DNA of 64,000 nt from Rhytidiadelphus loreus (taxonomy: Eukaryota > Streptophyta > Bryopsida > Hypnales > Hylocomiaceae): contig OX344763.1 in NCBI GenBank assembly GCA_947034895.1, positions 19,995,001 to 20,059,000 on the forward strand, read 5' to 3'. The translations under genes and the position numbers were made by a program. This document shows, one piece after another, positions 35,458 through 64,000 of the stretch (position 1 is the stretch's first letter; each line of letters starts with the position of its first letter). Under the pieces are notes generated by a model that had not been told where the DNA came from, made no database searches, and saw nothing but the letters and a program-made list of their open reading frames with translations.

Positions 35458-35477
35458 TATATTCATTAAAATGGGAG
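35458..35477 (+). repeat. Element A left terminal inverted repeat
   Basis: TATATTCATTAAAATGGGAG, pairing 19 of 20 bases with the right end. Confidence 0.85.
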
Positions 35478-36175: not shown

Positions 36176-38210
36176 CTAACTATGCGACAAACTCCTCAGC
36201 TTCTCCATGGCCTTAAAGATCTCGGGTCCTCGACTATACCCTTTTGCGATTTGCCCGGCCTCGTGAATTCCATCTCTCCGTTGGGCTTTCAACGACCTGC
36301 ACTCCCATGAATCCCACGATGGAGTCGAAGATTGACTACAAGAAGATCCATTGAGAATCCTCTTTAAACTGCCCCCTTGAGACAAAACACGCTTACGCGG
36401 GAGCGACGGACGAATAACAGGGACCGGAACGATTGTCTTGCATGGTACATCCGGAATTACATCCAACACATCCGGAGTGGACGTTAGATAGTTGGCATCC
36501 CCATAGAGCTTCTTTTGCGTCACTCTATCAGACGTACTTGGCGACATGCCAGAAACCTGAAGATCCCTGGAGCGTAGCGGAGATGGGGAACAGGAAACAG
36601 GCAAGCGCGGCTTTTTGTTTGGTGGACTGTCCACCACTCCATCATCGACAGGATTCACAGAAAAGTCCATTGTCGAATTTACAGTGGGTGCCGAGCACAA
36701 GAAGTTCCCGGTACTTAGGATTATGTACTGTCCATAATCCATAATGGAGTCCACGGATGCCTGACATGGAAGTCCATTACCTAATCCCTGAGACGTCGAA
36801 GTACTTGGCACCTGCAACGCAACCATTTGACATTAAAACACACTTCGTCCAAATTCAGAGTAGCTCCAGAAGAGACATCGAAAGCAAAACCTCCAATCAA
36901 GAATGCCCATCCAATCTATGATATGAAGCACATTCCAAGCAACGAAGAAGGTCGTCACGAGCTCAAAACATCATACTCATAACTACTAAATTACGAGTTC
37001 CCACCAACACTATACATCAGCTCGACACGAGTTGAACTGCGTACCTCCCTCAGGTCGCTCTAACTAAAACTAGCTGACCCGCGTACGACCTCCATGAGCT
37101 TGTCATACTCTCGACGACTCCTCTCCTCGCAGAGCATTCGTCGTCCAATTCTCCCATTCTTATCTCCACGGAACGACTTCAGACCCAAGTCGTGGCTGAC
37201 ATGCAAACGCTGAAACCAGGGAAGGAGAACCGCAAGGAGAAATGTGTCCTTCTCGCCATTTCCCCGATTACTCCAGGAATCCGAAAGAATCACATTCTCC
37301 GAACAGTTCATGATATGCTTACGAGGACTGTCATCTATTATGATGGTATTGTCAGATGAGAAATTCCATCGGGAGGCACTGAAAAGCACATCCAAATTCT
37401 TAAGGAATAGGTCCTTATTAGTTCCCGGTTCCTTATAAGAGACTAACCTGCCAACTCTATCTCTGCACTTCACTGTCTTGCACGAGTCTTGTCCAAGAAC
37501 AAGGTAGGGCGGACCTCCGTCCCGAAAGAGGTGAACGCAAATGTCTTCAGTGGTGGACTTTTTCATGGAACTCCACACTGAAACGAAAGCTATCTTTCCT
37601 AACTCCATCAGAAACGTGGAGCAATTGGGCCGGACGTACACCAGCTTTGGTCCCACAATTGCACCAATAGTGGCAGAGTGTGGCTCCGAGCGATGGTTGA
37701 ACTGCCTGACCGAGCCCTTGGACTTCCAATCCTCGCTAATACATAGAATGCCATTGAGGTCCAAGATGACGTTGATCCACTTCTCCACCACCCCAGACCT
37801 CAATGACCGATTCACGCCCTCCAAAGTCCCCATAGGAGCTACACGAGTATCCGATTCCTGGTGAACAAACGGAGGAGTGCAAATCCCATTACGATCGTGA
37901 AATTGGCCCATTGAAAATGCCACGCGAAATCCAAACCGAATGGTCTACCAAAATGACGACTCATATGTAATGGTGCCATGAATTAAAACATAAGAACGCA
38001 CTGTACCTTCCTCCGTGCCGGTATCGTAGACTGGTTCACGTCTTCACAATTTGTTGGGTCATATTCAGGAAGAGGAACATCGACGTCCAAATCTTTGGAC
38101 TCGGCCGGTATCCGATGCAACTCATCGACCATGACACGGTCCGCAGGCGAATCCGGATGAGAGTGTGCAGGAGGAGAATGACAATCCTCAGGATAACATT
38201 GGTGAATCAT
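36176..38210 (-). CDS. FCP1/SCP-like HAD phosphatase-type protein
   Basis: Proposed exons 38,210-38,007, 37,944-37,045 and 36,811-36,176, all joining in phase 0; the first intron is only 62 bp, and the second (234 bp) holds a degenerate palindrome. Exon 2 carries an FCP1-homology domain: 'VILDLNGILC' (about residue 127), 'YVRPNCSTFLMEL', and 'IIIDDSPRKHI' (about 271). Members act on phospho-Ser/Thr of RNA polymerase II tails or other proteins. The nucleophile Asp is kept, but the second Asp of DxDG is Asn, as in some plant relatives, so activity is uncertain. A TAG at 37,060-37,062 lies five codons before the exon 2 donor: either the true end, or an interruption before a basic, Ser/Pro-rich tail. 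The ATG at 38,210 is chosen because upstream bases look like an intron end. It is probably cargo of element A; no copy is visible in B. Confidence 0.6.
37017..37035. promoter_or_regulatory. Element A palindrome, degenerate site
   Basis: TCAGCTCG-ACA-CGAGTTGA inside the second intron of the phosphatase-like gene; one mismatch between arms. Confidence 0.6.
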
Positions 38211-38407
38211 AAAGCCTGCGATATGGGATTCAGTGAAAATATCTCTGTGAGAACTCAATATATTACATGCTCAAATTTGATATGTCCAAAATACAAAATT
38301 GTGCCCAGGACTTTAAGTACTAAGATTGGCACCACTACAAATGGCGGTTCGGAAAACAGAGTACTACATCTACAAGAAACTTTTCAGCTCAAAGTCTACC
38401 ATACATA

Positions 38408-38426
38408 TCAGCTCGAGTCGAGCTGA
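38408..38426. promoter_or_regulatory. Element A palindrome with compensated arms
   Basis: TCAGCTCG-AGT-CGAGCTGA lies between the stop of the ParB/methylase gene and the phosphatase-like gene. Both arms differ from the consensus (CGCG to CTCG, and CGCG to CGAG), so symmetry is kept. Confidence 0.75.
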
Positions 38427-39614
38427 ATCTACAAAAAACAACATCGAGTGATTATTGGGCACAACCTGCTGGTGGATCTCCAGTGGGCTGGGCATCACTT
38501 CCGGCTTCCACCTGGGAAGCATCCGTGGGCAGGTTGTGCCCAACGTCGACGTCCTCTCTCGCGGGTTCTGCTACGTCCTCAGTGTCATCTTGGTGCTTGG
38601 CGTGTTTGTCGTGCCCAACGTCGACGTCCTCTTTCGCGGGCTCTTTTGTGGGCTCTTCTGCGTCCTCAGTGTCATCTTGGTGCTCGGCGGGTTTGTCAGG
38701 GCTGTCCATCGGGGGGGGAGGTTCTGGGATAGGTGTCTCCACAGGTAGAGGCGGAAGAGTCTCCAATGCGCTTGAAGCGTTGGAGACAGATGGTTGCCCA
38801 TGTTCAATCATCGGTAAAGACGGAGAAGCGGGAGGCAACTGTGCCATAGGGTCTATTCCAACCTTCAACATCAGGAGCTGCATCATTTCCCTGTTTTGTA
38901 AGGCCAATTCTCTATTATGCTTGGACTCCTCCCTCATCCATTTCTGGTTGCTCTTGTGCATTTCGGCATTTAACAACCTCTCCTTCGCTTGCTCAGCTCT
39001 CAACTCGGCCATCCTTAATTCGGTCTCTGCTCTCGCAAGCTCAGTTTGCTGTTGCAGGGCTACAAGAGAAGCCGCATTCTGCACTTGAATATTTGCCAAC
39101 TGTTTCACGACACTGGTGATGGTGTCGCGCTTCCTTTTCTTCTGTGGTGGTTGGGATGGAGTAGGAGTTGACGGTATTTGAGCTAAGGGAGGCAACAAGG
39201 ATGAACCAGAGGATCCAGGAACGTCCCCAATTGGACGACTAGTTGGCGTCGGGATTTCATCGATTCCAACATCATCGTCGTAACAATCATCATCGTCATC
39301 ATCATCGGAGGAGGATATATCATCCTCATTGTCAAGAACAATAGGCGTCCGTCTCCTCTGTTCACTCCCTGGCGAATCGTCATTCGATCGTAGCTTCCTC
39401 TTAGACGAAGATGGTGTTGAACTTGGACGTCCACAACCGGGGACACGGTACCCGCTGTCCAGGAAATCAGCTTTGTCCAGAGTCATCGCCTTCAAACATA
39501 TTTCCTCCCACCAGAAGGTTTCCTCCGATGACCCAACAGCAAACACGTCAACACAATTCATCTGCATCGGCTACTTATACTTATTAGAACCTCTCATATA
39601 CTGATGCAGACATA

Positions 39615-39633
39615 TCAGCGCGATTCGAGCTAA
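39615..39633. promoter_or_regulatory. Element A palindrome in intron 3
   Basis: TCAGCGCG-ATT-CGAGCTAA; right arm diverged. Lies in the 175-bp intron 39,736-39,562. Confidence 0.7.
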
Positions 39634-39697
39634 ACCGACAGGACAATATACTACTGTAGATTATAACTTCACTGAGACATTCAAAAGGAATAGCAGA

Positions 39698-39716
39698 TTA
39701 GCGCGACTCGCTCTGA
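39698..39716. promoter_or_regulatory. Second element A palindrome in intron 3
   Basis: TTAGCGCG-ACT-CGCTCTGA, next to the GTATGT donor of the same intron. Confidence 0.7.
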
Positions 39717-39994
39717 TGCGCAGTACAGGCACATACCATTGCTGCGAATGTGAACTTGCCCCCAGTAAATCCAGAGAAGACACACTTTCCAGGATTGCAG
39801 AAGTTTGTCACAAGCCAAAGGTAAAATTCCATCCGCAACTCCGTGTTCTGAATCCGGTACTCCAGTTCACTATAGGCGCGCGCCTTCGTATAGCGAGCAG
39901 TATCCGGACAGTTGAATTCCGATGGAATATCAACAGCATTCTGGTTCGTGGGATTCTACAAAAACATGAGGAACACCTTCTTCGGTGTTTTGGA

Positions 39995-40577
39995 CCCGGG
40001 GAGGACACTCCCTATGTTTTAGCAAACTACGTGCGGCGGAAAAAGTAAAACAAGTAATACACCTTAAAATTTAATTTCTTTTTCAAAAAAAAAATTATGG
40101 ATAGATTTTACTACTTTATAAGTTTATGTTTTGAATTATTGGTATTTTTTTGTGCTAATAGTAATTAGTTATAAATTTTTGAAGAAAAAAGATACACTGT
40201 AAAGCTGAAAATAACTTTCACACCTCTATATTATATAAGAAAAAAAATTTGAAAAATGAAAAAAAAATTATATAGAATAGCTTTCTATTGAAAGTTTATT
40301 TTGGTTGAATATTGATGCAATAGTCATCTTCATGTGAGCTCTATAAATATTTTAGTTGGAGAACATGCCATTTTAGTTCATTTTTCAACCCTTTCTAGAC
40401 AATATATCTTATGTTATTTGGAATTGAATTTTTTGTCAATAGAAACCTTTAGTCATTGTTAAACAAAGCTCAAAATTTTAGAATGAAATTATAGTTTATT
40501 CAAGGTGAATTACATGAATTACTTTTTCCACCGCCGCACGTAGGTACCCTAAATGTAGTGAGAGTGTCCTCCCCTAG
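39995..40577. mobile_element. hAT-like 583-bp MITE, copy 2
   Basis: Opposite orientation to the copy at 14,845 and exactly the same length. Perfect 8-bp target duplication GTTTTGGA at 39,987-39,994 and 40,578-40,585. It is inserted in the ParB/methylase gene of element A, close to a GCAG|GTAAAA donor at about 40,612, so it may lie in a short intron. Confidence 0.95.
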
Positions 40578-41792
40578 GTTTTGGATGCCGCAACATCTCC
40601 TAGTCGATCGATTTTACCTGCCGAGTACACAGAAAAATCTATAGAGAAGGCACTAAGGACCTTGTTTGAATCCACGAAATTTAAAACCTGCGCCTGTTCC
40701 TTCTCGTCTCCACAAATGAATAGCCATGACGGCACTTCCTCGAGTGTTGGGTTCTTCTTCTTCCGCATTGAGGTCATGACTTCTACAAAGTATGGGTTAT
40801 CGACGCTGGAAGTCGGCTTCTTCTCAATCCCCGGAAGCACCCTGAAGTCTATCACCCCCAGCGACATTCGTTTATAGGTCTCTGATGTCCAGGAATTCGC
40901 CGGCCAGTCATTATGATAATCAGTGTTCTCGTTGTAGGGCCGATAGTGTCCCACTGCTGTTGGCTTCTGAAAGTTCTTCTTGTGCTCCAGGAATGCCTTA
41001 AAGAATTGAAACGCCTCCTCAGATAGTTCAGCACACGATTTGTTCTTGGACTTAACTTGCTTAGCCTGGCCAAAGTAGGCCTCACCGGGCCTATCCAATA
41101 GAACGTCCATTGTCGCTCTGGAAAACAGTCGTTCTTGCTTGAATGCCTTCCAGTTCTGAACAATGAGTTCATTCCTTGAGTTCAGAAGACCAAGATCGGG
41201 ATTGATGTGATGGAGCTCTTTCTTCACCAGGTGCTTGCGCTTCCTTCTCTCCGACCATTCCTTTGTTGTGTAGCAGTTGTCAAGCACTGACGAAATTGCT
41301 TTTATCGTCACCTTTGGATAAGAATGATTGCGCTTAGGTCCTGTCTGGTTGAGGATATGGTTTGCCAATTTCCCAAGTTCGTCATGACTGAGGTTTCCCA
41401 AATGCTTGAAGTATTCTCGAGTCAACATGCAGTTGTCTGGATTCCAATCCTGCCGACTGTTGAACTTCTTATCCGTATCAGGATTAATGAGTTCTCCATG
41501 TGCAGCAGCGGAAATAAGCTCGCTCCAAAGCTTGTATACCTCATCCGGCGCAGTGATGAGTTTTAACTCGTTTGTGAGTTTAAGTTTCTCTTCTTTCGCC
41601 TTTGTCTTCGACAGTCTCAGGTTCTTGTTGACATCAATCATTGAGAACCTTACGTAAACTGCCTTCTCAAATGCCTGAGAGAATACAAGGAGTTTATGGT
41701 CAGACATTGGAATGTATCAGCCATAGTTGACCGATACGGAATTTGACGGAATTAAAAAATCAAAACACTACGAACAGAACAGAAGCATCAGT

Positions 41793-41811
41793 TCAGCGCG
41801 ACTCGCGCTGA
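41793..41811. promoter_or_regulatory. Element A palindrome in intron 1
   Basis: Perfect TCAGCGCG-ACT-CGCGCTGA in the 146-bp intron 41,820-41,675. The corresponding intron of element B (63,561-63,764) holds two sites of the B family instead. Confidence 0.9.
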
Positions 41812-43313
41812 TGTACATACCTGAAAGGCATCCTTGTTTCTTTGGTTCTCTACCGTTCTCCTTGTTACAAACACGGTCCCGACAGACACAACCTGTGTGG
41901 GATTGCTTGGTTTGCCCATGGCCTCCTATACTGACCGAGATCCAAGAATGTTTGTCGCCCATGAGGGTTGGGCTGCGACGAAGTGGTTAGTTCGGTTATA
42001 ATAAGCAGAGATACATCGGAGTTTCTCTGCGTCAGTTGACCACACTACAAAACAGTTCCACTTCCGGAAATGTTCTCTTTCGTCAGGATCCACCCCGTTC
42101 TTCTTGTCGAACATGAACTTACTGGCCTCCACGCTGTGCTGACCATTGATAATATAAAATTTCCCGCCTTCAATATCCTTCCAGTCCTTCGGTTTGGAGT
42201 TATATCCAACAAGCATAACACAGAGCGTTTGCTTCGTGCTCTTGTCCGGAATATTGAGAAGCCAGTTCACCTGGTCCTCGATGATGCGATTCTCCTTCGA
42301 ACGAATGTTGAATGTTGCAGGAGGTGTAATCAGCTGCGAGATGTCAATCTCTTTCTTATCATCGACTTTGAAAACATATGCATCTTCGCATGTGGTCCAG
42401 AACTTTTTGTATGTCTCGCTGATGGCCTTGTAATTTGGCTTCTTCTCCGTCGCTCGCGAGTGAGGGACATTGACCATCTCGTCTACATAACTGCCCTCAG
42501 CAATTTCGGAATGCTTAGAGGTCCTGGGGATTGGCCTTTCTGTTGATGGGGATGCAATAATATTCTTGCCTTTCCTCTGCGGTGTTTTATCCGGCGTCCT
42601 CTGAGATCTCCGCTGGCCGCGGCTGGCTCCGGATTCCTGTCCTCTATTGTGCTTTGAGCTTTGACTGACTCCGGCGTGGACAACATCCATCGAAACTGAG
42701 CGTGGCCTATTCATCTCATTTTGCATCTCCAACTTCCCCTTCAACGTGTTGAAGTCGTTAAACAGTGACCGAATTTTTGTGCACAGTCGCTTCCAGGTAA
42801 GTGGTGTCCCATTTGCGTTATGCCACTCCCGGTTGTCCAGTTTTCTCTCTAGCTCTTTCACTTCATCCCGAAAAGGAGTTGGCTCAAGACTTAGGAGTAG
42901 CAGCGTCATATTAAATGGTATAAGAACGCTGTCTATGCATATCGAGAAATGATACTGATCTTTGTTGTCAATACCGGGAATTGTTGTAACGCACTTGATT
43001 CTGACCATGGGATGGGTATCAGATTCGACATCTTTTACTTTCTCCTCAAATGATAGCTGTAGGAAGACTTGTGCATTTCTGAACTTGTATGTGAAACAGA
43101 ACTGATTTTTAAATGGGATCATCATGAAACCCTAGGCTTCTACTCTCTCTGGATCCTTGAATTCCTAGTACTCGCCTTCGATAAGCGAGTCGTCCACATC
43201 TTCGTTGTCGTCTGGGAATTGGACCTCGCACTTCCGGAAGTACATCTCAAGTGCTGCCCTGTGATTCTCCATTCTGTAACCAACACATGGTATTAGAATT
43301 TCTTGTTGTCATT

Positions 43314-44057
43314 TCAGCGCGCTTCGCGCTGATCCGTTCTATGCCTTAGATTTTATTGATGCAAAATAGATGCAGTTTTCAGATATAAATACACAATTGG
43401 ATTCATCTGTTTCCAGTTATGTTTTTTGAACTTACTATGATAGGATATATTTAAGTAAGTATTCAGATTTATTATTTGTTCAGCGTGATGCGCGTTGATA
43501 TGTATTGCTAAGGGTCTCAATGTATTCCGTTGAGGTGTGTAGAGGGCAATTAATTCTTTATTTCATTTATCGGAATATGGGTACCCTTTCAGCGCGACCC
43601 GCGCTGATCTGCTCTTATGGTTTCATAACTATCTATTCAGTTCGATTACTATGTATTTCCAAGGGTCTCAATGTTTTCCTTTATGGTATGTCGAGGGCCG
43701 TGAATTCTTCATTTCATTTATCGGCAGCAGTTCAGCGCGACCCGCGCTGATCTGCTCTAATTAATTTATGACCATCTATTCAGTCCAATTACTTCTACCA
43801 TATACATTTAATTGTTTTCGTATTTTCTTGGTTACGTGTCTTCGGGTACTACATTCTGGTTTTAGAATCAAGTAAGTAGTGTTGATGTAACTTTAGCGCG
43901 ACTCGCGCTGATATGGCATATGGTGGAAATTCATTAAACGGACGATGATTTCTGTGTCTGTCTTTTTAGCGCGACTCGCGCTGAAATGGCATATGGTGGG
44001 AATTCATTAAACGAATTGTAGTTTCTACGTCTGTCAATTTAGCGCGGTTGGCGCTGA
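43314..44057. promoter_or_regulatory. Element A palindrome array, methylase-gene side
   Basis: Seven sites at 43,314, 43,480, 43,589, 43,732, 43,893, 43,966 and 44,039, each 19 bp with 8-bp arms around a 3-bp centre (CTT, ATG, ACC, ACC, ACT, ACT, GTT). Spacing is irregular (73-166 bp). Two sites share a following 30-bp phrase 'atggcatatggtggaattcat'-like, 73 bp apart. The array fills the presumed 5'-leader intron of the ParB/methylase gene. Confidence 0.9.
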
Positions 44058-44094
44058 TCTGCATGGATGCAGGGTTTTATATCATACCATTTCG

Positions 44095-44240
44095 TGATTT
44101 GAATGCGGGGAATTTTAGGGTTTAGGATGTGAAATTTTGGGTACCTGAAAATTTTAGGGTTTGGGTTGTGAACGTACCTGAATACTTTCCGCTGTGCTAC
44201 TCGATGCAAACAGTTTCAGATTGTGGGCAAGGTTTTTTAA
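44095..44240 (-). promoter_or_regulatory. Leader exon and telo-box promoter candidates
   Basis: On the minus strand an untranslated exon ending in 'AGTATTCAG|GTACGT' (donor near 44,178) could splice to the acceptor at 43,274. AAACCCTAAAA motifs near 44,110-44,165 and 44,360 match the plant telo-box, a promoter word of actively transcribed genes. The exact transcription start is unknown. Confidence 0.4.
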
Positions 44241-44739
44241 CCTGCAGGTAATGAAGAATTGAAAGAGTTCAGAAGCGTTCAAAAAATGCTGCACATGGCC
44301 ACATGAATATGCATTCATGCTACAAACTACCTATACTGACTGGCTTCCTTTCCTAGGGTTTTAGGGTTTATGGTTTGACACTACAATGATAGAAGCATGA
44401 AGAAGGATCATACATAGGAACAATGAACAATGAAAACAGGAAAAAACGAAAACAGACCACAATACAAACAGACAACAATGAAACCTAACATAAACAAACA
44501 AAACAAAGAATAATGAAAACTGACAACAATGAGAACTAACCAAAACGAAAACGAAAACAAACAACATCGAAAACAAACAGCAATCACAAAAAATACATCG
44601 AAACCAAGCAGCAACCGAATCAAACAGCAACCAAAGCAAATAACAACATCGAGAACAAACAACAAACGATAAACGAAAACAAACAAAAACGACAAGAACT
44701 AAAAACAATCACAAATGAAAACAAAACAATGAATGGAGG
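44241..44739. other. A/C-rich low-complexity stretch
   Basis: 44,400-44,730 repeats 'gaaaacaaacaacaat' type words with almost no G or T on the plus strand, hence long open frames on the minus strand that are not proteins. Confidence 0.6.
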
Positions 44740-45230
44740 ACCTCACCTGTGAATCCCGCGACTTTGCAGCGCCAGCGGAGGAGCGCCGGAACGAGCAGCG
44801 CGAGGGAGGACAGGAGAAGCGCCGGAACAGCGCGAGGGTTTCGTGTTGGAGGAGGAGCACTGGGAGGAAAAACGAGCAACGCCGGGAGCAGCGCCGGTAG
44901 CGACAACGAGCAGCGCCGGGAGCACGGAGAGAAGGAACAGCGGCCCACCGCTGCGAGGACGAGCAGCAGGGAGAGACGTGCGAGGAGGAGAGGAGGAGTA
45001 GCGCCGGGGGTTTCGAGAGCGACATGCGAGGACAATAGGAGCAGCGCCGGGAGTTTGGGAGCGACGTGCGAGGAGGTTTCGGGAGCAGCGCCGGGGGTTC
45101 GGGAGCGACGTGCGAGGAGGGTTTCGGGAGCAGCGTCGGGGCATGAAGACGACGGGTTTAGGGGTTAGGGGGACCGGCAGTGGGGGGGCGGGCAGTAGGG
45201 GGAGCGGAGGGAAAAAACATTCTCCTAAAC
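44740..45230. repeat. GC-rich purine block in element A core
   Basis: Repeats of 'gcagcgccgggag', 'gacgtgcgaggag' and 'gagcagcgcc'. GC-rich island with a strong G/A strand bias. Element B has a comparable block at 60,180-60,540. Open frames on both strands follow from composition. Confidence 0.6.
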
Positions 45231-45454
45231 CTAAACCTATCAAAGAAAATAACTTCTTCAAAGAATTTTTTTTAAGGAAAATAACTTCAAAGAAATTTTA
45301 AATAAAATAACATCTTCAAAGAAATTTTTTTCTAGCACTTTCAGTGCGAATTTCATTCACAATGTATGATCCAACATCACAAAAAATTTAGCACAATATC
45401 GAAGACAAGATCCTACATTTACATTATCATAAAAAAAATAGACGAAATTTGTAT

Positions 45455-45640
45455 TCCATGATTAGACAAAAATAGCAGAAGTGGTAATTTAGCGTGGATT
45501 TCGCAGAAAAATGGTCTTTGGATTTAAGAATTCCAAAGAAGTTGTATTGCATGATTAGACAAAAATAGCAGAAGTGGTAGTTTAGCGTGGATTTCGCAGA
45601 AAAATGATCTTTGGATTTAAGATTTCCAAAGAATAAAAGT
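45455..45640. repeat. 93-bp tandem repeat, 2 copies
   Basis: Units around 'gattagacaaaaatagcag' at 45,460 and 45,553, nearly identical. Confidence 0.85.
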
Positions 45641-45683
45641 ATTAATATCAATTTACAAATTCCTTCAATATTTTCTAAATAAT

Positions 45684-46262
45684 AAAGGACCGTGCGTTGT
45701 ACTTGAATGTAAAAAAAAATAGAAAGTCATGAAATCCACATTCCAAAATAATGGATAACACGTGGAGCAAGTTGCAATTATTCCCAAAATTTCAAATCCA
45801 AAAAAATATGCTACTGGTGGCCACTTTCAATGACCTTGTTCGTGAAACAAAATACTAATGGGGGAAATTGAAGGACCGTGCGCTGTACTTTAATGTCCAA
45901 AAAAATAGAAAGTCATGAAACCCACGTTCCAAAAGAATGGAAAACACGTGGAGCAAGTTGCAATTATTCCCAAAATTTCAAATCCAAAAAAATATGCTAC
46001 TGGTGGCCACTTTCAATGACCTTGTTCGTGAAACAAAATACTAATGGGGGAAATTGAAGGACCGTGCGCTGTACTTTAATGTCCAAAAAATAGAAAGTCA
46101 TGAAACCCACGTTCCAAAAGAATGGAAAACACGTGGAGCAAGTTGCAATTATTCCCAAAATTTCAAATCCAAAAAAATATGCTACTGGTGGCCACTTTCA
46201 ATGACCTTGTTCGTGAAACAAAATACTAAATAATGGGGGAAATTGAAGGACCGTGCACTGTA
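45684..46262. repeat. ~187-bp tandem repeat, 3 copies
   Basis: Units start 'aaggaccgtgcg' at 45,684, 45,871 and 46,057, with a fourth beginning at 46,246. Units two and three are almost identical; the first is slightly diverged. Confidence 0.9.
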
Positions 46263-46770
46263 CTTTAATGCCTCAAAGAAAATATGAATTCATGATAAAT
46301 TTTATTTTGAATACATTTCACTTTTTGATTTTAATTATTGAATATTGCACATATTTAAACCTATGCATGTTTCTTGAATTACTTCAATCTTACATTTGAA
46401 TAGACATTGAGCGTTTAGAGTATGTGTAAATCATTTTTGATGTCTTTATGGGGATGGAAGATTCTTTGCAGGAAAATTTGTTGCATTTCATGTGAGCATA
46501 AATTCTATGTGTTTATCTAGCTTATGTAGGTATTCTAAATTTTTTTAAACTATGTTGTTTGCATTTGTGATCATGAACTTCTTGATATAAACTACAACAT
46601 ACTATGTATTTTGGATTTGAGGGTTACTAATGGTGCAAAAGAAATACGTACTAGAAAGTTTTAGGTATTTATGACTTTTATAGTTTATTGCGCAAACCAT
46701 TTATGACTTTTATAGGGTAAATGAATTTAAATACAAATTTTGAATTACTTATTTTTTGTACACTTGATGA
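46263..46770. other. AT-rich core spacer
   Basis: No gene or repeat recognised. Confidence 0.3.
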
Positions 46771-47115
46771 AGGACCCTATTCTCGAACCCTGAACTCTGA
46801 ACCCTAAACCCTAAATCCTACAAATCCTGAATCCGAAACCCTAAACCTCCAAAAAAATAGTTCAAAAAGTTAAATTCTTTGAACATTCCATCATTATTCC
46901 TATTGTGAATGGTTCTTTTTCTTTAAATATGAACAGGAAAGGACCCTATTCTCAAACCCTAAACTCTGAACCCTATACCCTAAACCCTACAAATCCTAAA
47001 TCCTAAACCCTGAACCTCCAAAAAAATAGTTCAAAAAGTTAAATTCTTTGAACATTCCATCATTATTCTTATATTGAATGGTTCTTTTTCTTTAAATATG
47101 AAAAGAAAAGGACCC
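46771..47115. repeat. 169-bp tandem repeat with CCCTAAA-like tracts
   Basis: Units start 'aggaccctattct' at 46,771 and 46,940, with a third start at 47,109. Each unit opens with about 70 bp of degenerate plant telomere words (aaccctaaac, gaaccctg). Confidence 0.9.
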
Positions 47116-47330
47116 TATTCTTAGAGCATTTATGACGGAGAAGAAGTTGCAATAAAGTAGGCTTCCTGTCTAAATATATAGATTTTAGAATACTGTGCCT
47201 CTTATAAATTTGATAAGGGACAGGCCGCCGGTAGTTGTCTAATTCGTTAACTAGATATTCTCTCATGAAAAACAAATGACGGTCATTATTATTTGAGGAC
47301 GTTAGATGCTAATTGAAAGGACGTAAAGGT

Positions 47331-48082: not shown

Positions 48083-48093
48083 CGACCAGTCAC

Positions 48094-52620: not shown

Positions 52621-52640
52621 CTCTCATTTTAATGAATATA
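52621..52640 (-). repeat. Element A right terminal inverted repeat
   Basis: Reversed it reads TATATTCATTAAAATGAGAG, 19 of 20 matching the left end. The partner target duplication gcgtttttg follows at 52,641-52,649. Confidence 0.85.
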
Positions 52641-53828: not shown

Positions 53829-53870
53829 TCTGCGCGTGAAAGAACACCAATTAATTCATACTGTTGTGAG

Positions 53871-53889
53871 TATCCTCGAGGCGAGGATA
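53871..53889. promoter_or_regulatory. Element B palindrome near transposase start
   Basis: TATCCTCG-AGG-CGAGGATA, 43 bp upstream of the ATG at 53,828. Confidence 0.85.
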
Positions 53890-54139
53890 AAAAACAAGTA
53901 CGACACATTGACAAAATCAGGGGCAAAGTGACTTCCAGTGGAGGGTAAAATTGTAAACCATTTTGTGATCATGTATACTAATCCATCCACCTAGACTAAT
54001 GAAGTTAAAATGCGACGAATTAGCACAACAGAACCAAAAAACAGAATCTAATCTATCATCTTTGCATTCCTTAGAACAATCAGAATTATATTACTTCATC
54101 TACCAAACACTCTAAACTACGAGTATGAAAAGCAAAAGG

Positions 54140-54158
54140 TATCTTCGATTCGAAGATA
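54140..54158. promoter_or_regulatory. Element B palindrome, TTCG variant
   Basis: TATCTTCG-ATT-CGAAGATA: both arms carry the compensating change (CTCG to TTCG, CGAG to CGAA). Confidence 0.85.
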
Positions 54159-54307
54159 GCAGACGTCAAAGATTGAGAGATTTTATGCATTCCCCCTCAT
54201 TAGACTGTCAGAATGATTATGTATGTAAACTCTGTATATCATCTCGAATGTTAGTGAATGTCTTCCTTTGTCTATGGTTATTATTTACATTCTATGCATT
54301 TGGGATA

Positions 54308-54646
54308 TTATCCTCGGCTCGAGGATAACCTCCATACAAGTGTGTGATTATTCTCTAGTCTACGATAACCTCCATGCATGTCTGTGATTATCCTCGAGCC
54401 GTGGATAATCTCCAACATGTCCGTGACTATCCTCGAACCGAGGATAACCTCCATCCTATCCGTGATTATCCTCGGACCGAGGATAACTTCCATGCATGTG
54501 TGTGATTATCCTCGGACCGAGGATAACCTCCATGCATGTATGTGATTATCCCCTAGACGAGGATATCCAACATGCATGTTTCGGATTATCCTTGAACCGA
54601 AGATAACCTCCATGCATGTTTCGGATTATCCTCGAACCGAAGATAA
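54308..54646. promoter_or_regulatory. Element B 40-bp-phased palindrome array, 9 units
   Basis: Nine palindromes at 54,308, 54,348, 54,388, 54,427, 54,466, 54,506, 54,546, 54,586 and 54,626. Each is 21 bp with 9-bp arms TTATCCTCG/CGAGGATAA and a variable 3-bp centre. Spacers are conserved too ('acctccatgcatgt'), so this is a true tandem array. Several units have decayed arms (54,348 and 54,546). It lies upstream of the transposase gene on its leader side. Confidence 0.95.
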
Positions 54647-54659
54647 CCTCCATGCACGT

Positions 54660-55140
54660 ATGTGTTAGAGAAATTTATAGTTCCGATATTTACGGCGTGA
54701 AAATCGGTTGTTCTTTCTCGAACATAACATACGAAGAACAACACTTGAGACGTGACACTGGAATTCTGAATACGCGATGAATCGGAGGACTAAATAATAC
54801 TGCATGTACCTTTGCTTAAAACTGAGGAGCAAGAACAGGAATCTAGCATTCAGTGAAGAGGGAAGAAGGGAAGTAGAGGAACTTACGACAACCCGTGCGA
54901 AACTAAGCCACCTACTCACATAAACATGTAAATGAATGCAAAAACATAAGTTCAAAGGCCGTGCGGTAGCAATGTCAGCAAGAGGCCGCGGAGGAGGGAA
55001 ATCTGGAAAACACGAGAGAGGGAATGAGGTGCTCGAGGAAGAGAGACGATGCATACACTAGCGGGAGAAAATGAGCGGGAAATTCAACGGCATTTGAGTT
55101 CTTCATGATTTTCTGGACGTAGGGGAGAAGTACTTGCTCG
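54660..55140. other. GC-richer leader-like block
   Basis: Purine-rich plus strand ('gaggaagagagacg', 'ggccgcggaggaggg'). A long minus-strand frame here is Ser/Leu-rich low complexity and not convincing. Possibly promoter or leader of element B's transposase gene. Confidence 0.35.
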
Positions 55141-58100
55141 GATTAGGGGGCCGTTGACATTCGATTCGCCCACATAATGACAACGATGTGGAATATGAAG
55201 GAGCTTTTCATTAATAGAATTGGAATCTGACGTAGCCGATCTTTTTATGATTTAAATAGGGGAATTTATATTTTGTGGAATTCATGGCAGTCACCTTTTT
55301 CCGGAGAATGTGGAAATATTCTTTGAAAGCATAGCGGAATTTAGAATTTGGCAAATTTGGCAATTCATACACCACCCGCCAATCAACCTTCTTTTTAAAA
55401 TAGTTTATTCTTAAGTCTGATTTAGATGAATGTATAGGGGAGGTATCCACACCAATTTGGCACATGGTGGGTCCAATGTGCATTGGCTATAATCAAAATT
55501 GTACCTATTGTAAGCTTTCAATAGGGAATGAAGTTAGGGCTTTAGGGTATAAGGATTAAGGTTTTTAGGGTACCCTCGGGAGGGTGGGTGGGACATCCTT
55601 TTTCAAGGCTGTTCCTACCAAATTTCTACCACATTTTCACCATACATTACAACACTTATCATTTATTAGCAAATAGTTTTCATCCTTCTTCCACACATAC
55701 ACTGACCCTTCATTTATCTTTGAAAAACATTTCTATAGAAGTTTTTGCCAGATTACAATCATGGCATATCTATAATAGCTTCATATTTCTCTATAGTCTT
55801 TTTCTAAATTACAACATATGACCTGCCTATTTTTATGCACACTATATAGCATAATATTAAGCAACCCTAAGTAATTGTTTGATTCTCTAGGTCTTGTATT
55901 TAGCCATCTTGATAATATCCTCAAAGAAGCTATAGCTCTCACCTGTCCCCATGACCCACCACACATCGCAATGTTAGGTTGATCGTAGACGAGGTGTCTA
56001 CAAGCTACAGCAGTTTGTTATCACTGTTTGCTTTGACAACATTACCACAGATTAGCCTAACAAATTCCAAGAGAAACGACAAACACATGTAAAGAAAAAA
56101 CATAAGCCAAGGAAAAAACATATGCAAGGGAAAAAAATCTCTTTCAGAACTTGGGATGCAGCCATATCTGCCTCGAGTACCCCCCAGCAACAGCTTACTG
56201 ATGATACCGTTTATCGACAGAACCTCAGCTTCGGCGACTTGCCACGAAACATACTGCTGCTCCCCTTTTATTCTTTTTCCGAACAAGTGACTCAGCCGGG
56301 GCCACCTCGCCCCCATGTGCCGGCACTCCTTCTGATGACTTAGCCACAGCCCCATACTGTGGCCGTTATTCACCCGTTTTATTTGACTGTATACAGTTTT
56401 TTAACAAATGGTACTTTTTGCTTCAGTTATTAAGTTAATCCCCACTAATCTAGATTGAGGGGTACTTTGTCTGGTATCATTCACGTAAGTTTCTGCTTAG
56501 TACCTCATTTTACCCACTCTTTATCCTTATAGTGAAGGTATGATGGGAGGGAGGGTGGGTCAGATCATGGCTGATGGGTCAAATTATTGACTGGTTATCT
56601 TCACCAAGTCAATATTAGCCTACATATTGGACTACATTATGTAGTCTTAACAAATGATTATCTGTCCATACTTGTGACATTGACTCATTTGTATATATTA
56701 TCCATATGGAACCTATATTTACCCATATTGGATAATATTTAACATTTTTTCTTTTTCTCATTTTTCTCTTTTTTTCTTTACTTTTTCAAAGCTTGTGATC
56801 ACACATAAACTTTTACTTAAAATGACACATTACTCTATGTAACATGTCTATGGGTTTAGGGTTTAGGGTTTAGGGTGTAGGGTGTAAGGTTTTAACAAAG
56901 TCTTGAAGAAATGTAAATTATATGTTCATGAATTCAATATTTTTTATCATTAAGATTTTGCGGATTATATTGACAATTCATATTTGCTTTTGAAATTCCA
57001 TATCCAGAAGTTTAAGGATGTTTCTTATTTAGATTTATAGGTTTTGGGTTTAGGGTTTTCACATTAAAGCACACGATTAAATATAATAGTTTCTATTTTG
57101 AATATTATTAGTTCTAATTAATAAATGATGTCCAAAGTTGTTGACTTTTAAATGACCGTACAATCTCGAATTTAATGTCATGAAAAATATACACAACTTT
57201 GAGTTCCATTATTCAGAATAAAGAATAATGTACAATTGTGAATTTTTTAAGATTCAATTCTATAAAATGTAGTTCTTGTAATAGTTTCTTTTCCAGAATG
57301 TTTTAACACATTCTAAGAAATTTGCATTTATAGAGGAGCACATTGGAAATGAAAGAAGAAACGAAGCCATTGATGTTGTACTTCTTAGAATTGAAATTTT
57401 AATGAGGACAACTAGAGCAGAAACAGAAAATATTGTACGAGTTAAATTATGATAAAAAAATTTGAAAGAATAATGATTCTTCAACATAGTATATTATTCT
57501 GTTCAATTGTTTTTTTAAATTAGAATGATTAAGGGGGAAAACCAAAAGTTTGCACAACAATGTAAAGAAGTACTATAAAAATATTTAAAAAAATCTTTTA
57601 AAAATTAAAAAGAAATAAAAAGCAAATGTTTCAATATTTCAAAAAGAAAGTAGGATACTTGAACTATACAAAGTAGGACCCCTATTTTTACAAGCTTGGT
57701 AACTATATGAAGAGTAAAAAATTTCAAAGACCTTTGTTCTAAGAAGTCATCCTGTCCACTTTCATCACATTCGAATTTCGAAGCTATGATTTGAAGAATA
57801 ATTGGCTTCAAATGGGCCTACTTTGTTAGGACATTGAAATGAATGATGGATTTTGTATTCATTTGCTAACAATCATTATTATTAACTCCATCATGGTTTA
57901 GAGACTTGAACCACTTCAATGTCTCATAAAATTATAATCATTAATATGAGAGTTTCACCTCCTAGAAATGAATGTATTACAACGTATTGCATACTATGAC
58001 TTCGAAATTGTATGAAAATACTATATTCTATAAGTTTGAGAAATTCTTTACATCTTGTATAATTTAAACACATAATTATTCAAAAAATGTAAGTTATGTA

Positions 58101-59120
58101 TCAATGAAAGGCCTATTTTTTAACTACTATGAACAATTTTGAGTGTTGTACTTTTAGAATTGTGTCATGAAAACTTTTCAATAAACAAAATATTATATCA
58201 AAATCATTCTTAATCTTTTTAAAATGGAATTAATTAATAAAACAAGCCAAGAGTACTTTGTACTTTAAAAACTAAACTCAATGCACAACAATCATGGAAT
58301 TTTAATGAAGACAACCGAGTGAAAAAAACGTAGAAGTTTCATTTTTTTTGCCATTCCACCCTGAAACCTATTCCATGAATTGAGAAATAATAGTTCTTCA
58401 AACTACAAAACATGAATACTTCATTTATATTTTTTGTTGTAAAGAACCAAACAACTCGCACCAAATTAATTCACAGAAGAATCATAATTTAAAGTTCAAA
58501 AAATTTTCAACTTCTACATTTTATTTCTTGTCCCAATTAGTGGTTATTCCATACCTTTTTAAATGTTAAATCTTTAAAATATGGTGTTTAGACCTTTAAG
58601 GGTGAGAAGTATCTAAAAAGTAAAAGTTCTTTATAATTTAAAAAAAACAAATTGTAAAATTAAAGAGTTTATTATTTATTATTCTTTTATTAATGACAAT
58701 ACTTTGTATTACATATAGAATTTTAGTGTATGGAATGCCCAAAATGTAATGTAAGCTTTGAATAGAGTATAGAATTTGAAAATTGTGTTTCGGTGCATAA
58801 GTTCTAAAGATGCTTGATTCATTTGAAATTTAAAGTAAATTCCAAAAAGCTCAAAAAACACGTTGGTCATTTAGGGTGTTGAAACCCTAAACAATTTAGA
58901 AATATCATTGATTGAATTCTATTCAAATTTGATTAAATTAGCACATATGAAAAATCCCAATGGATATGGAGTATTTCCCACATTCTTGTGGTATGAAGAG
59001 AAAGTCTACATTCAATCAAAAAATTTGAAACAAATGAATTATGGTGCTGGAAGATATCATACACACTTTGACAATTGTTTGATTTATGTGTTCAATAACT
59101 CTTAGTCCCATTAGAGGGAC
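55141..59120. other. Element B core spacer
   Basis: AT-rich, no gene recognised. Telomere-like 'gggtttagggtttaggg' at 56,855-56,885, with a weaker 'gggtttagggtt' at 57,045. A GC-richer 56,130-56,350 block with an open minus-strand frame (QYVSWQVAEAEV...) has no recognisable family. 'ttttaatgaggacaac' near 57,400 recurs diverged near 58,300. Confidence 0.35.
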
Positions 59121-59124
59121 TCTT

Positions 59125-59695
59125 CAAATTCCTTAACTCCTCAATGACACCAAGGCCATTTCCTTGTCAATGAGTGACAAACAATCTTGCCGTATAGGAC
59201 ACAAATGCAACTATTCATGCTTTAGAATTTGTGTGGAAAGGAAAGATCATGTACAATAGTTTGTTGTGCAATGAGTACTTTTTCATTTTTTTAAGCCAAC
59301 AATACATCTAGTGACACAACAAACGATATCCATGATCATGATTGACCTAGAATTCAAGGATTAATTTTTTTTTTAACTACCAACATTTAGAGAGCCCAAA
59401 TGTCATGAAATATAATCTGTGGTTGTATAGTCAATTCTTTGAAATTGAATGCCACCTCTTTGAATAACTTGTGACCTACAAAAACTTAGTGAAATGAAGT
59501 TCTCTTACATTCTTTAAAGCATAATGACTATAAGGCCATTTTCTAGTCAATTAATGACAAAGAATCTTTATATGTAGAACAAAAATGCAACTATTCATTG
59601 TCCAAAAAGTATGTAGAAAGGGAAGATTATCTACAATAGTTTGTCTTCCTATGTGTATTTTTTAGGGTTTATTTAAACCAACAATTCCCACAGGG
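59125..59695. repeat. Two direct repeats of ~180 bp
   Basis: 59,125-59,310 and 59,505-59,695 share 'aatgcaactattcat', 'ggccatttNNtNgtcaat' and 'acaatagtttgt' phrases in order, about 380 bp apart. Confidence 0.6.
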
Positions 59696-59904
59696 ACAAA
59701 ATAGATGATTTCTGCAGTGACCAATCAATCGTTTAAGGCTTAAGGTCTTAAGGACACCTACGTGTAGAGGGCCCCAAGCTCAAAACTAGGGTTTCGCGAT
59801 GTACATTTGGCAAAATAGGTTTGGGACAGGTAATAGGCTCGGCATGGTAGGTTTAGGGTTTAGAATTGTGGGTTGAGGAAATAGGGTTTAGGGAGCCAGC
59901 AGGC

Positions 59905-60180
59905 TCAAGAATGTACGTTTTGGAGGTTGAAGACTTGGGAACGCAGGTTTGAGAGTTCGAAGACTCATAAACGTAGGTTTAGGAACGTACATTTATGAGG
60001 TTGAAGACTTGGAAACATAGGTTTGGGAGTTTGCAGACTAATGAATGTAGGTTCGGGAGTTCGTAGACTCTTGAACGTAGGTTCGGGAGGTTGCCGGTTC
60101 GGGAACGTAGGTTCGGTCGCAGGTTCGGTCGCAGGTTCAGGCGGTCGAAGGCTCGGGCTCGGTCGCAGGCTTGGGCGGTC
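59905..60180. repeat. Degenerate ~35-bp tandem repeat
   Basis: Cycles of 'gaacgtaggttcgggagttcg' and 'gttgaagacttgg'; the right end shortens to 'ggttcggtcgca' repeats. Confidence 0.65.
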
Positions 60181-60545
60181 ATCTCTCCGGCGCGAGGGTT
60201 CACCATCATTCTGCAGCGCGAGGGTTCAGGGTTCAGCGTTTGCAGCGCAATCTCTCCAGCGCGGGTTTCCAGGGCGGTTGTAGTCTTCTTCCGTGTGTTG
60301 CTTGCAGTGTTGGGAGCTTTAGTGGCGGAACTGATGCAACTTGAGGTGCGGGATGGGAGGTGAAGCGCGGGAGGGGCGTGAGGCACGGGAGGCGCAAGGA
60401 GGCGCAACGCGTGGAGGGGCGAGAGGCGCAGCGCGGGAGGTGCAGCGCGTGCAGCGTAGCTGAAGCAAGAGGAGGCGCGGGAGGCGCGGGAGCTGAAGCA
60501 AGAGGAGGTGAAGGAGCGACATTGGCTGCTGTTTCAAGCAGGGTT
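60180..60545. repeat. GC-rich block in element B core
   Basis: Repeats of 'gcgggaggcgc', 'gcagcgcgag' and 'gaggcgcaa'. Similar in composition and wording to 44,740-45,230 of element A ('gcagcgcgaggg' is in both). Open frames on both strands come from composition. Confidence 0.6.
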
Positions 60546-61197
60546 TAGGGGAATCTGAGCACTTGATTTTTGATAAGAAGAGTTATGTACTTTGATGTGT
60601 TTATTCAATTTGAAATTGCTGTACTTTGTTTTCAACCTTTGTGACTGTTTCTGTTTTCTAGTGTTGTGGTTCTAGAATTCAGGGCAAGGTTCTTGAATCT
60701 GAATTAAGGTTCTTGAATTTTGGTTGTAGTTACTCATGCATTCATTGTGCATGTTCAATGTGAAATTTCAGTTGTTATGTATTCATGAATTCTTCACCTT
60801 CTTGCAATGTGAATGCAAGTGCTACCAGCCTCGGTTTTAGAGTTTGGGTTTGAATTTTTTGATCATTTGTTTCATTTGTTTGTGGATTAGGGTTTAGGGT
60901 GTGTGCAGTATTCATTGAACATTAGAGTGTGTAGAAATTCTATTACATTTTAGAATCTGCTGTAGGAAGTGTGCAAACAATATAATTTGTAGGTGACCAA
61001 GTGTTCAGTTGTAGTATTCTGTTGTTTCCACCCTTGCTTTTGCATTCATTGCGTGATTTCAATTTTGTTTATTGCATATATTAATTGAGTGTTTACTAAA
61101 TTCTATGTCTGTATTCTACGCGTGCCTAGATGATTAGTATTACATTTAGGGTTTTCGTCAAAATTATCATCAGTTATTATTGAGTTACCAACAAAAA
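60546..61197. other. Leader-like region upstream of the element B array
   Basis: T-rich plus strand with 'ggtttagggtgtg' telo-box-like words at 60,893. No coding sequence. Confidence 0.3.
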
Positions 61198-61218
61198 TTA
61201 TCCTCGGTCCGAAGATAA
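61198..61218. promoter_or_regulatory. Element B palindrome, outlying site
   Basis: TTATCCTCG-GTC-CGAAGATAA, one arm with a C-to-T type difference. Confidence 0.8.
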
Positions 61219-61361
61219 TGATCATCGAGTCTAAAATAAACTGTAGTCTATAAAAGCTAAGAACCCACAAGTGTAATGAAAAACACAGCAAGACTAACAA
61301 TTATACTCGGCTAAAAAGTAAAAGCACAAAAAAACACCCATCATTTCAAAAAAAGAAACAA

Positions 61362-61738
61362 TTATCCTCGGCCCGAGGATAACTAACTAACAAGCATGGA
61401 AAAAAGAAAAGAAAATAAAAATAAAAAATTATCCTCGGCCCGAGGATAATTGTCAAACAAACAAACAAACACAAAAATATATTAATTAGAAAACAATTAT
61501 CCTCGGCTCGAGGATAATTGTCCAAAAAAATATAATAACATAAAAACAATTATCCTCGTCCCGAGGATAATTTTTAAAAACAAAAAAATAATATAAATAA
61601 AAAACAATTATCCTCGGCTCGAGGATAATTGTCCAAAAAAATATAATAACTTTAAAACAATTATCCTCGGGCCGAGGATAATTGTTGAAAACAAAAAATA
61701 ATTTAAATAAAAAACAATTATCCTCGGCTCGAGGATAA
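61362..61738. promoter_or_regulatory. Element B palindrome array, methylase-gene side
   Basis: Seven perfect-arm sites at 61,362, 61,429, 61,497, 61,550, 61,608, 61,661 and 61,718, with centres GCC, GCC, GCT, TCC, GCT, GGC and GCT. Spacers are A-rich and 32-47 bp. Flanking 'caa'/'ttg' extends several sites to 12-bp arms. Long minus-strand frames through this array are artefacts of the repeat. Confidence 0.95.
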
Positions 61739-61921
61739 TTGTCAACCAAAAAAATAATACAAAATAATTTTAATTAAAATAAAAAACTATAAGCAACGAA
61801 AATAATATAATGAAATTAGAATACGAATATAATATAATGAAATTAGAATAAGCAACAGTTATACCCCTCTAGAGTATAAAAGCAACAATGTAATGAAAAT
61901 AGAATAAGAGAACGTACAGTA

Positions 61922-62080
61922 TTATCTTCGACCCGAAGATACTGAACTGTAGCATTGACATACAAATAAATTCCATATGTTGATAATTGTTTTATACGAT
62001 TTGAAGCCCAGGACGGTATTATTTAGTCAGATTACATTAGGCAGAACATTTTTCGTTTGTTATCTTCGAGGCGAAGATAA
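61922..62080. promoter_or_regulatory. Two TTCG-type element B palindromes in the leader
   Basis: 61,922 TTATCTTCG-ACC-CGAAGATAC and 62,060 TTATCTTCG-AGG-CGAAGATAA, both upstream of the TACAG acceptor at 62,122 in the presumed leader intron. Confidence 0.9.
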
Positions 62081-62135
62081 AAATCAAATTACAACTCTGA
62101 TTTTCACGATTTGCTATGTACAGATTTATACCAAC

Positions 62136-64000
62136 ATGTCTACGGACTCTGAGTATGATTACTCAGCTACACTACCGTTTCTGGAGCCATTTAGCAAGTG
62201 GGTGGATGAGGAGCCCTTCATAACGGAGATGCCAGAGCTCTACGGCAAGCTCTGGCAATTCAAAGCCGTTGTCGACTCTTGGACATTCGGTGTCAACCAG
62301 TCGAAGGATTACATCTACCTACGTCACCGAGTAAAAGACAGTGGGATTTACGTGAATTGGAACCTCAGTGAGAAGGTCGCTCTCGTAGAGAATCACCAAG
62401 ACAAGTACCTTGTCATCACACTACAAGGGTACGACAACACGGGGAGGGAAACAAAGCATACGCATTCCATTGTCTGCCATGAGGATGACACTATGGGAGT
62501 GTTCAACTTCGACAACCTCATCGCCGACTTGCACTTGGCAAACCATGATACCTTGGCTGAAGACTTCATTTCAAGGTACCACCCCTGGGTCAGAAGGAAC
62601 GCCAAGGCCATGGCGAGGAAAATTGGGTACATGTTCCATAAGCTCACTGAGCACGCCAAGGAACATGTCCAAAAAGGACCTGCCCGAGCGAGTCACGGTC
62701 ATGGTCATCAAAGGCAGGAAACTGCGGCTGAGACCAAATCAGCGTCAGGAGTGCGTGGCCGAACAAGGAGTAGAGGAAGTGGGAGAGGGACCGCCCGCGC
62801 TCAGGCCCAGAAGAGAAAGACCCCGGACACCAGTACTGGCGAGCCGAGTGACAAACGGAGGAAATCTGTAACGGACACTCGTCCAGCAACCGCTGGCAGT
62901 TCAGGCTCTATTCTCACAAATGTGAATCCACGGAAGCCATCAGATAAGAAAGCAATCGAAAAACATGAAGTGGCTGGAGCATATCAATCAGATTTTTGGA
63001 AGGAAAATGGCAAGTGCTTCATTTTTCATCCCCAGATCTTCACCGTAGACATCAAACAATGCTTCCTGGCCAAGGAAAGATATATTATCTGGAAGCTAGA
63101 AATGAGAATGGTGTTTGAGATGAAAGACACCCTCGTTCATCTCGGCTCAGAGCAGCAAAGACAAAAACTTTGCTTGACACCTGTAGATGCCAATAAGAAA
63201 CTTCTGAAGGAGCGTCCGAAGGATTGGGATTCCATCAAGACCGGAGGCTTCTTCATCATCAATGGCCAGCACAGTGTCACTGCAGCCAAAATGCTACAAC
63301 AAGGAGGATGCTGTGAGACTCGGAAGATCGAGTTGCAGACGTGGGAGGCTATAATCGTCTGGACTAGAGACCCAAAACAGCTCATAGCTATTTCAAAATG
63401 GTGCAATGCCTCCAATCACCTCGTTCACAATCAGCCAACGTGGGGGAACCAAATTTCCGCGTGTAGGCAGGTTTGGAAGGAGCTCAAGCGGCCTACCAAC
63501 ATCGAGAATGAGGGATTGGTGAGGCGAAATAAGGCTGTCTTCAACCTTGCAGCATACAAGGTAGGTCCATTTTATCTTCGTGGCGAAGATAAAATGTATA
63601 TGTTCATGATCTAGTTATTTTAATGTACTGCCTCTATAGGGGTTGTTATCTGTAATTTCATGTTCTGTGATCTCTGTCTCAACTATCCTCGGGTCGAGGA
63701 TAATGGTCAGAAGAATGTATGCATTGAGTACTGAGCTTACTTCATTGAATATTTGTCTCGACAGGATTTTGTCGACGCTGTCATGATCCGGTATGGCAGC
63801 ATCAATCCGGACAAGGAGGGAGCACAGGTGAAGCTCGCATCGGATGTCAAGAATGAAATCCAAATTATTACCTTGGCCGATGAGACTTACCAGATGTGGG
63901 AGGAGTTCCTCCAAAAACACATGGAAGGATCACTGATTGATCCTGTGACGCGCAAACCATTCAAAAGCGCAAAGACCTTCAACGAGAAGAATTTCTCATT
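62136..64000 (+). CDS. Element B ParB-type NGQHS protein, truncated by the window
   Basis: Exon 1 62,136-63,560 (475 codons) and exon 2 from 63,765, joined in phase 0 by GTAGGT and GACAG. The intron position matches intron 1 of element A's gene. The ATG follows a splice acceptor at 62,122, and this start puts NGQHS at residue 376, exactly as in element A. Order: N-terminal domain to about 190; basic, low-complexity linker with 'RGRTRSRGSGRG' and 'KRKTPDTS' (nuclear-localisation-like); then the ParB-type region with 'FFIINGQHSVTAAK' and 'CNASNHLVHNQPTWGNQ'. Exon 2 ('DFVDAVMIRYGS') matches 'AFEKAVYVRFSM' in A. The methylase-like half would lie beyond the edge. No stop interrupts it: this is the least damaged gene here. 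A DNA-binding or nuclease-related role is inferred from the fold. Confidence 0.75.
63572..63703. promoter_or_regulatory. Two element B palindromes in intron 1
   Basis: 63,572 TTATCTTCG-TGG-CGAAGATAA and 63,683 CTATCCTCG-GGT-CGAGGATAA, inside the 204-bp intron of the ParB-type gene. Confidence 0.9.

Follow-up and report, generated by a model that had tools for sequence, protein, structure and literature searches.

What does it mean that two transposons, one lying inside the other, each carry many copies of a palindromic word of their own, and which protein would read these words? The question arises in a window of 64,000 nucleotides from the moss Rhytidiadelphus loreus (assembly GCA_947034895.1, contig OX344763.1, positions 19,995,001 to 20,059,000 of the forward strand; coordinates below are window positions), in which a 17,193-bp transposon, element A (35453..52645, plus strand), is nested in a second one, element B (32969..64000; features given without a strand are unstranded). 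Both carry a DUF7869 transposase gene and, divergent from it, a gene for a partner protein that we call ParB-like. According to our joint reading, which we hold with about even confidence, A and B are giant transposons and the palindromes are putative sites at which a dimer of a protein encoded by the element, most likely the ParB-like partner, would bind for self-recognition and anti-silencing.

Allowing up to three mismatches, the word of element A, TCAGCGCG-NNN-CGCGCTGA, was found at 19 sites (37017-48896; 8 exact; shuffle mean 0.02) and that of element B, TTATCCTCG-NNN-CGAGGATAA, at 21 sites (53870-63703; 10 exact; shuffle mean 0.04), which become 25 once the 7 kb to the right of the window are added. 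Neither word was found in the opposite element within the window at this threshold. The first-pass annotation, made from the letters of the window, had counted 19 and 23 sites, each set restricted to its own element; the first number was reproduced, and for B the exclusivity stood but the count did not. In element A, seven sites lie upstream of the ParB-like gene (43314..44057) and seven upstream of the transposase gene (48095..48896), and all the others lie between open reading frames (ORFs) of the partner gene: an exact site in intron 1, between its first two exon ORFs (41793..41811), and four more at 37017, 38408, 39615 and 39698 (37017..39716). In element B, nine sites precede the transposase gene (53870..54646), eight of them in a 40-bp tandem array; ten occupy the upstream region and leader of the ParB-like gene (61198..62080), seven of them spaced by 53-68 bp; and two lie at the end of the exon-1 ORF and just past it (63572..63703). 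These B-word arrays are known from one B copy only. The positions confirm the clustering upstream of both divergent genes and the recurrence in introns that had been described at first pass. A CG-NNN-CG centre had also been proposed. Among the 19 A sites, C is found at position 7 in 17 and at position 12 in 18, and G stands beside both of these positions in all 19; in the 25 B sites the inner-edge C is present in 23 and 25 and the G in 24 and 25. The design thus describes most sites of the window, but fails as a rule for the family, as seen below.

The 407-Mb genome contains many relatives. Scoring covered 73 of 1,932 candidates in the case of the A transposase, 111 of 1,564 in that of the B transposase and 104 of 1,016 in that of the A ParB-like exon, so that these numbers are lower bounds. 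Transposase and ParB-like genes no more than 16 kb apart are divergent in 28 of 29 pairs, counted by eye (the exception is C4:1932919). The site survey comprised 30 loci (L005-L034), namely element A and 29 relatives. With up to three mismatches, 193 sites of the class of the respective locus were detected in the 1.5 kb preceding the match to the main transposase exon, none within this exon and none in the 1.5 kb after it; with up to two mismatches the numbers were 148, 0 and 0, and the Markov controls gave 0.0. At least three own-class upstream sites were present in 30/30 loci. Family members without palindromes, which would have spoken against the original proposal, were therefore not encountered in this set.

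This distribution bears on the possibility that the transposase itself binds the palindromes, either as accessory sites of transposition or as operators of its own promoter. Sites stand upstream of the transposase in every locus surveyed, as such a binder would have them, but the case for the transposase is weakened because no sites follow the main exon, in a stretch that in A nearly reaches the element end; the same absence disfavours the transposase/subterminal-repeat pair suggested at first pass. The A sites nearest to the element ends still lie 1.6 and 3.7 kb inside, and the introns of the partner gene carry sites too. The first 180 residues of transposase exon 2 differ most between subfamilies overall (0.68-0.88, with the pairs A2-A3 and D-G left out), but the last segment is low as well (0.74-0.88, leaving out the same pairs). 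A further point for the transposase comes from a small foldback element, described below, which has an A-type palindrome 52 bp from one of its ends and, in the opposite arm, a second palindrome that has decayed. On balance, we consider binding by the transposase rather unlikely.

The words of the relatives differ by lineage. A de novo search returned TCAGCGCG in two loci, TCAGGTCG in five and TTAGCTCG in four, the words of classes A, G and T in this order; variants with one inner edge altered, A2 and A3, were found in seven loci, and a decayed TCAGGT-type, class D, in twelve. One locus, L016, gave no de novo word and was assigned to D by its weaker sites. Classes were assigned after the sites had been seen, which makes the labels A2, A3 and D circular in part; other data also contain the A, G and B words, and the T word is known only upstream of its four transposases. 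In the transposase tree, A, A2, A3, G and T form one clade each and D joins G, with identities between classes of 82-85% in most pairs (A2-A3 92%, D-G 96%). Both inner edges are CG in 13/14 upstream sites of A, 17/22 of G and 18/20 of T, and the agreement between the two arms is 0.96 in A, 0.93 in G and 0.86 in T, compared with 0.74-0.80 in A2, A3 and D. The D loci (L011-L013, L015-L018, L020, L021, L023, L026 and L033) have transposases about 98% alike and have lost the inner CG symmetry; they possibly represent a lineage that is changing or losing its word. The expectation of element-specific words with a common frame that vary between lineages is thereby supported by the relatives.

Host transcription factors, recruited by the elements as promoters or enhancers and differing from lineage to lineage, could also account for placement at promoters and in introns, which is typical of enhancers, and CG-rich words might suit methylation-sensitive factors. 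One rigid frame with no fewer than six key pairs and the recurrence of the B word in distant relatives are nevertheless better accommodated by a single evolving cognate protein, and we judge host factors to be a distinctly improbable explanation. A genome-wide search is also relevant here. The A word has 81 exact sites in the genome, of which 50 were listed; 37/37 of those whose centre is not AACC/GGTT have a listed family gene at a distance of at most 15 kb (1.2% for random positions). The remaining 13 of the 50, with AACC/GGTT centres, have no listed family gene within 30 kb. The first-pass annotation had regarded an abundance of the palindromes away from such elements as refuting; for the A word, 37 of the 50 listed sites speak against such an abundance and 13 do stand apart. 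Four of these 13 were read, and all lie in copies of a foldback element that is about 330 bp long (less in one copy; L001-L004, around 1240-1780) and has ends like those of A, for which reason solo copies of the A word were rejected as a refutation. The A-type palindrome near one end of this element and the decayed one in the opposite arm are those mentioned above, and its four copies are flanked by the 4-bp duplications TTAT, TTTA, AATT and CTAA, read by eye. For the G word, 134 exact sites were found, and the reversed pattern had none; a family gene is present within 15 kb of 49 of the 100 sites listed, in gene lists that are incomplete.

The intron-1 position deserves a separate analysis, since palindromes are present there in relatives as well. 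ParB-like proteins in databases often extend into the stretch that is intron 1 in A and B, and we asked for which of their peptide stretches an 8-3-8 palindrome with inner CG would be a possible coding sequence; the resulting words are deduced from peptides, not from DNA. There were 31 such stretches in 2,674 amino acids of tails against 23 in 27,674 amino acids of bodies, an enrichment that compares tails with coding bodies of different composition. Twenty of the 31 share one frame, 28-33 residues past a marker, and belong to 20 of the 89 proteins, some of which lack a tail; the words at this common place are TCAGCGCG, TCAGTGCG, TTAGGGCG, TCAGATCG, TTAGATCG, TCAGGTCG, TCAAATCG and TATCCTCG; three more, further along, are TCAGCTCG. 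In the B lineage, TATCCTCG (twice), TATCGTCG and TATCTTCG make four in-frame matches near the ends of 3/13 further proteins, and two more matches in this set are ambiguous. All proteins with TCAGCGCG or TCAGTGCG fall within the clade of A in the ParB-like tree. The word of B is common to P0207 and P0208 (42-45% core identity to B) and is also implied in P0211 and P0212 (46% and 44% identity). The AT and GT keys occur in more than one clade, either by common descent or by re-use. At the DNA level, ten 75-base intron-1 pieces of this genome were inspected: six hold a palindrome with at least 7/8 arm matches and two more one with 6/8, where a hand estimate of the chance expectation per piece is about 0.02 and 0.2, respectively.

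Such regularity is also pertinent to the idea that the words were spread by neutral tandem duplication, with no cognate protein. Tandem units of 40 bp, 53-68 bp and 73 bp do hold some of the sites, but the palindromes are also dispersed and occur at one intron position across relatives. Against it, too, is the close matching of the arms in A, G and T reported above, though the values in A2, A3 and D are lower. We attach very little weight to this explanation.

Which of the element proteins would then be the reader? Between A and B, the ParB-like exon is 24% identical and the transposase 43-65%. At four G-word loci the transposases are 83-84% identical to that of A and the ParB-like proteins 51-52%; a fifth G-word pair gives 81% and 52%, and five A2/A3 loci give 84-85% and 64-65%. 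Judging by these sequences, the ParB-like partner evolves faster than the transposase, which fits the pattern of the VANC proteins discussed below.

Several observations weigh against our joint reading, besides the compositional difference behind the tail enrichment. Both inner edges are CG in only 7/25 upstream sites of A2, 4/50 of A3 and 0/62 of D, and in 5/12 D loci the main transposase exon is free of stops in spite of the lost CG symmetry; the loss in most A2/A3 sites and in all 62 D sites makes the CG-NNN-CG design a tendency of some lineages and not a law of the family. Eight of the 31 tail matches are of other kinds, and two of the ten intron-1 pieces (L070 and L073) are without a palindrome. 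The ParB-like proteins of L072 (CT key) and L071 (CG key) are 66% and 67% identical to that of A, and this near-equality with different keys means that the word is not determined by identity to A alone. With both proteins encoded on one element, the word correlates with either of them, and a clean recombinant separating the transposase from the ParB-like gene was not found. Finally, in scans with an alignment of 32 ParB-like proteins neither Pfam nor NCBIfam yielded a ParB family and PDB yielded no chain, and in the PHROGs scan one member matched a ParB-like family at an E-value of 0.11 only, which is not credible. The proposal of a recognition system diverging with its cognate protein is supported as to the element- and lineage-specific words, but its parS/ParB label is not confirmed by profiles.

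The joint reading can be put as a sequence of putative steps. A and B would be cut-and-paste transposons, probably Sola1-like, with a DUF7869 transposase and a 4-bp duplication, each also encoding, divergently from the transposase, a ParB-like protein followed by a NIF/CTD-phosphatase-like part. The palindromes would serve as dimer-binding sites, most likely for the ParB-like protein; because they stand at both promoters and in the introns of the ParB-like gene, this protein could distinguish the element that encodes it from other genomic DNA and maintain that element in a transcribed or unmethylated state, which would amount to self-regulation. A lineage might acquire a new word by changes in a two-base key inside the fixed frame, together with the cognate protein. 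A bolder version, which we regard as quite improbable, is a eukaryotic ParB-like clamp that loads at parS-like palindromes, spreads over its own element and blocks silencing, its two-base key (TCAG-NN-CG) being re-spelled in a fixed frame to give many mutually blind lineages per genome. A true partition system, in which a ParB clamp on parS-like sites would segregate an extrachromosomal form, is very doubtful: the palindromes do neighbour a ParB-like gene, in whose protein alignment INGQ is invariant and the HSV after it nearly so, but the profile matches lack credibility, the sites are scattered over promoters and introns, A is integrated with a target duplication, and no ParA is among the Pfam matches of the scanned ORFs, for which no search aimed at ParA was made.

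Comparison with known systems places this proposal. In ParB-parS, a palindromic site lies beside the ParB gene, as it adjoins the ParB-like gene here; the lack of a ParA match in scans not aimed at ParA, that of a credible ParB profile match, and the residence in a eukaryotic transposon, set A and B apart. The En/Spm protein TnpA binds repeated, methylation-sensitive, subterminal motifs of its element. The predicted system resembles it in pairing an element protein with repeated motifs that may be methylation-sensitive, and differs in that sites are at promoters and in introns, with none close to the element ends in the survey downstream of the main transposase exon; the end on the ParB-like side is known in A only, and the foldback element does have a site near its end. 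The Sola1 superfamily is defined by a 4-bp target-site duplication, which is seen at A (TTTG) and at the four foldback copies; by analogy with the Ectocarpus element described below, A and B are likely giant Sola1 transposons. In the literature, a 4-bp duplication is stated for Sola2 (excerpt of PMC3627910), and Sola1 of Physcomitrella is named in a table (PMC9033089). The giant Sola1-1_Ec32 of Ectocarpus encodes, opposite its transposase, a ParB-like protein for which binding and modification of the element itself have been proposed; that protein has an added DNA methyltransferase domain where the elements here have a NIF/CTD-phosphatase-like part, and the likeness is one of description (PMC12477816, available text, which does not contain "palindrom"). 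This was the only Sola1 paper among the matches listed for giant transposon, accessory and palindrome.

According to the consulted sections of PMC5735166, VANC exerts anti-silencing for VANDAL (MULE) elements of Arabidopsis, a short motif is repeated in non-coding element DNA, often in tandem, the motif differs between related families, and the second protein outpaces the transposase in evolution, the last three of which resemble A and B; a lineage-specific motif repeated in non-coding element DNA is likewise found here. Unlike A and B, VANDAL elements have a different transposase and a nine-base motif, YAGTATTAY, compared with the CG-containing palindrome of 19-21 bp (PMC5735166). The partner protein here has no VANC domain (the 32 ParB-like proteins together matched 18 Pfam families, none of them DUF1985 or DUF287), and its binding to the palindromes is a prediction. 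If the joint reading is true, this would be a second case of elements tagging themselves with a private DNA word, in another superfamily and outside flowering plants. The many natural word variants in one genome would be a source for learning a protein-DNA code, and the word/protein pairs could serve as tools for addressing chromatin and would allow testing how recognition systems switch specificity yet keep function.

The genes are arranged colinearly in both elements, with ParB-like exon ORFs followed by a NIF/CTD-phosphatase-like ORF, divergent from the transposase. In element A, the transposase gene (48977..51863, plus strand; ORFs about 48977-49474, 49341-51137 and 51321-51863) matches PF25273 (E 2.7e-43); the two main exon ORFs of the ParB-like gene (40574..43125, minus strand) are assigned by colinear homology to element B, the real start being probably slightly upstream of the annotated one; and the NIF/CTD-phosphatase-like exon ORF (37060..37944, minus strand) matches PF03031 (E 9.9e-15). 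In element B, the transposase gene is split by element A into a 5' half (52650..53828, minus strand; 43-46% identity to the A transposase in 5' pieces) and a 3' half (33768..35448, minus strand; PF25273, E 2.1e-28 and 9.5e-16), and the ParB-like exon-1 ORF (62136..63614, plus strand), whose start is deduced from the alignment, aligns with the A exon over 413 positions, at the 24% identity given above. The NIF/CTD-phosphatase-like ORF of B lies beyond the window (L065:3226-4035) and matches the profile only over positions 3-70 of 160; an ORF of this type is kept in both elements despite their far divergence. Beyond the B partner gene, an ORF on the minus strand (L065:6386-6958) resembles, by eye, a protein kinase fragment. 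The transposase relatives include the Physcomitrium patens DUF7869 proteins P0004 and P0013 (70% and 69% identical to A), and the organisms named among the 120 transposase matches listed are Physcomitrium or Ceratodon. Named ParB-like matches comprise one from Physcomitrium and P0208, which is labelled as an uncultured Synechococcales cyanobacterium and is tentatively taken for a mislabelled plant contig. In the papers searched, DUF7869 gave no match, and a query combining ParB, transposon, moss and transposase gave bacterial or unrelated matches, as judged by title.

Element A is a mobile element integrated with a target duplication: its inverted ends, AACATTATATTCATTAAAATGGGAG / AACGCTATATTCATTAAAATGAGAG, are flanked by TTTG on the left (35449..35452) and on the right (52646..52649), read by eye, and the insertion site is empty in 29/30 B loci (with up to four differences), the exception being the copy of the window itself. 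The splitting of the B transposase gene by A and the beginning of B at 32969, left of A, had both been missed at first pass. Element B begins with AAGGCCATATTCATTAAATTGAGAC, a terminus present in 27/30 B loci and followed by differing flanks; in the other three, the terminus search matched a different place. Its right end was not found up to 71000, i.e. 7 kb past the window, with up to three mismatches. The observed/expected ratio of CpG is 0.86 in element A (35453-52645), 0.67 in the intergenic part of B and 0.44 in the left half of the window (1-32900); young or unmethylated elements would explain the little depletion in A and the milder one in B. Telomere-like AAACCCT / GGGTTTA repeats are located between the divergent genes of both elements (46770-47121 and 56852-56892), and in element A this region also holds a 186-bp tandem repeat (45685-46295). 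Two B copies, L037 and L038, 36 kb apart on contig C5, have an identical flank past the terminus, which suggests a local duplication.

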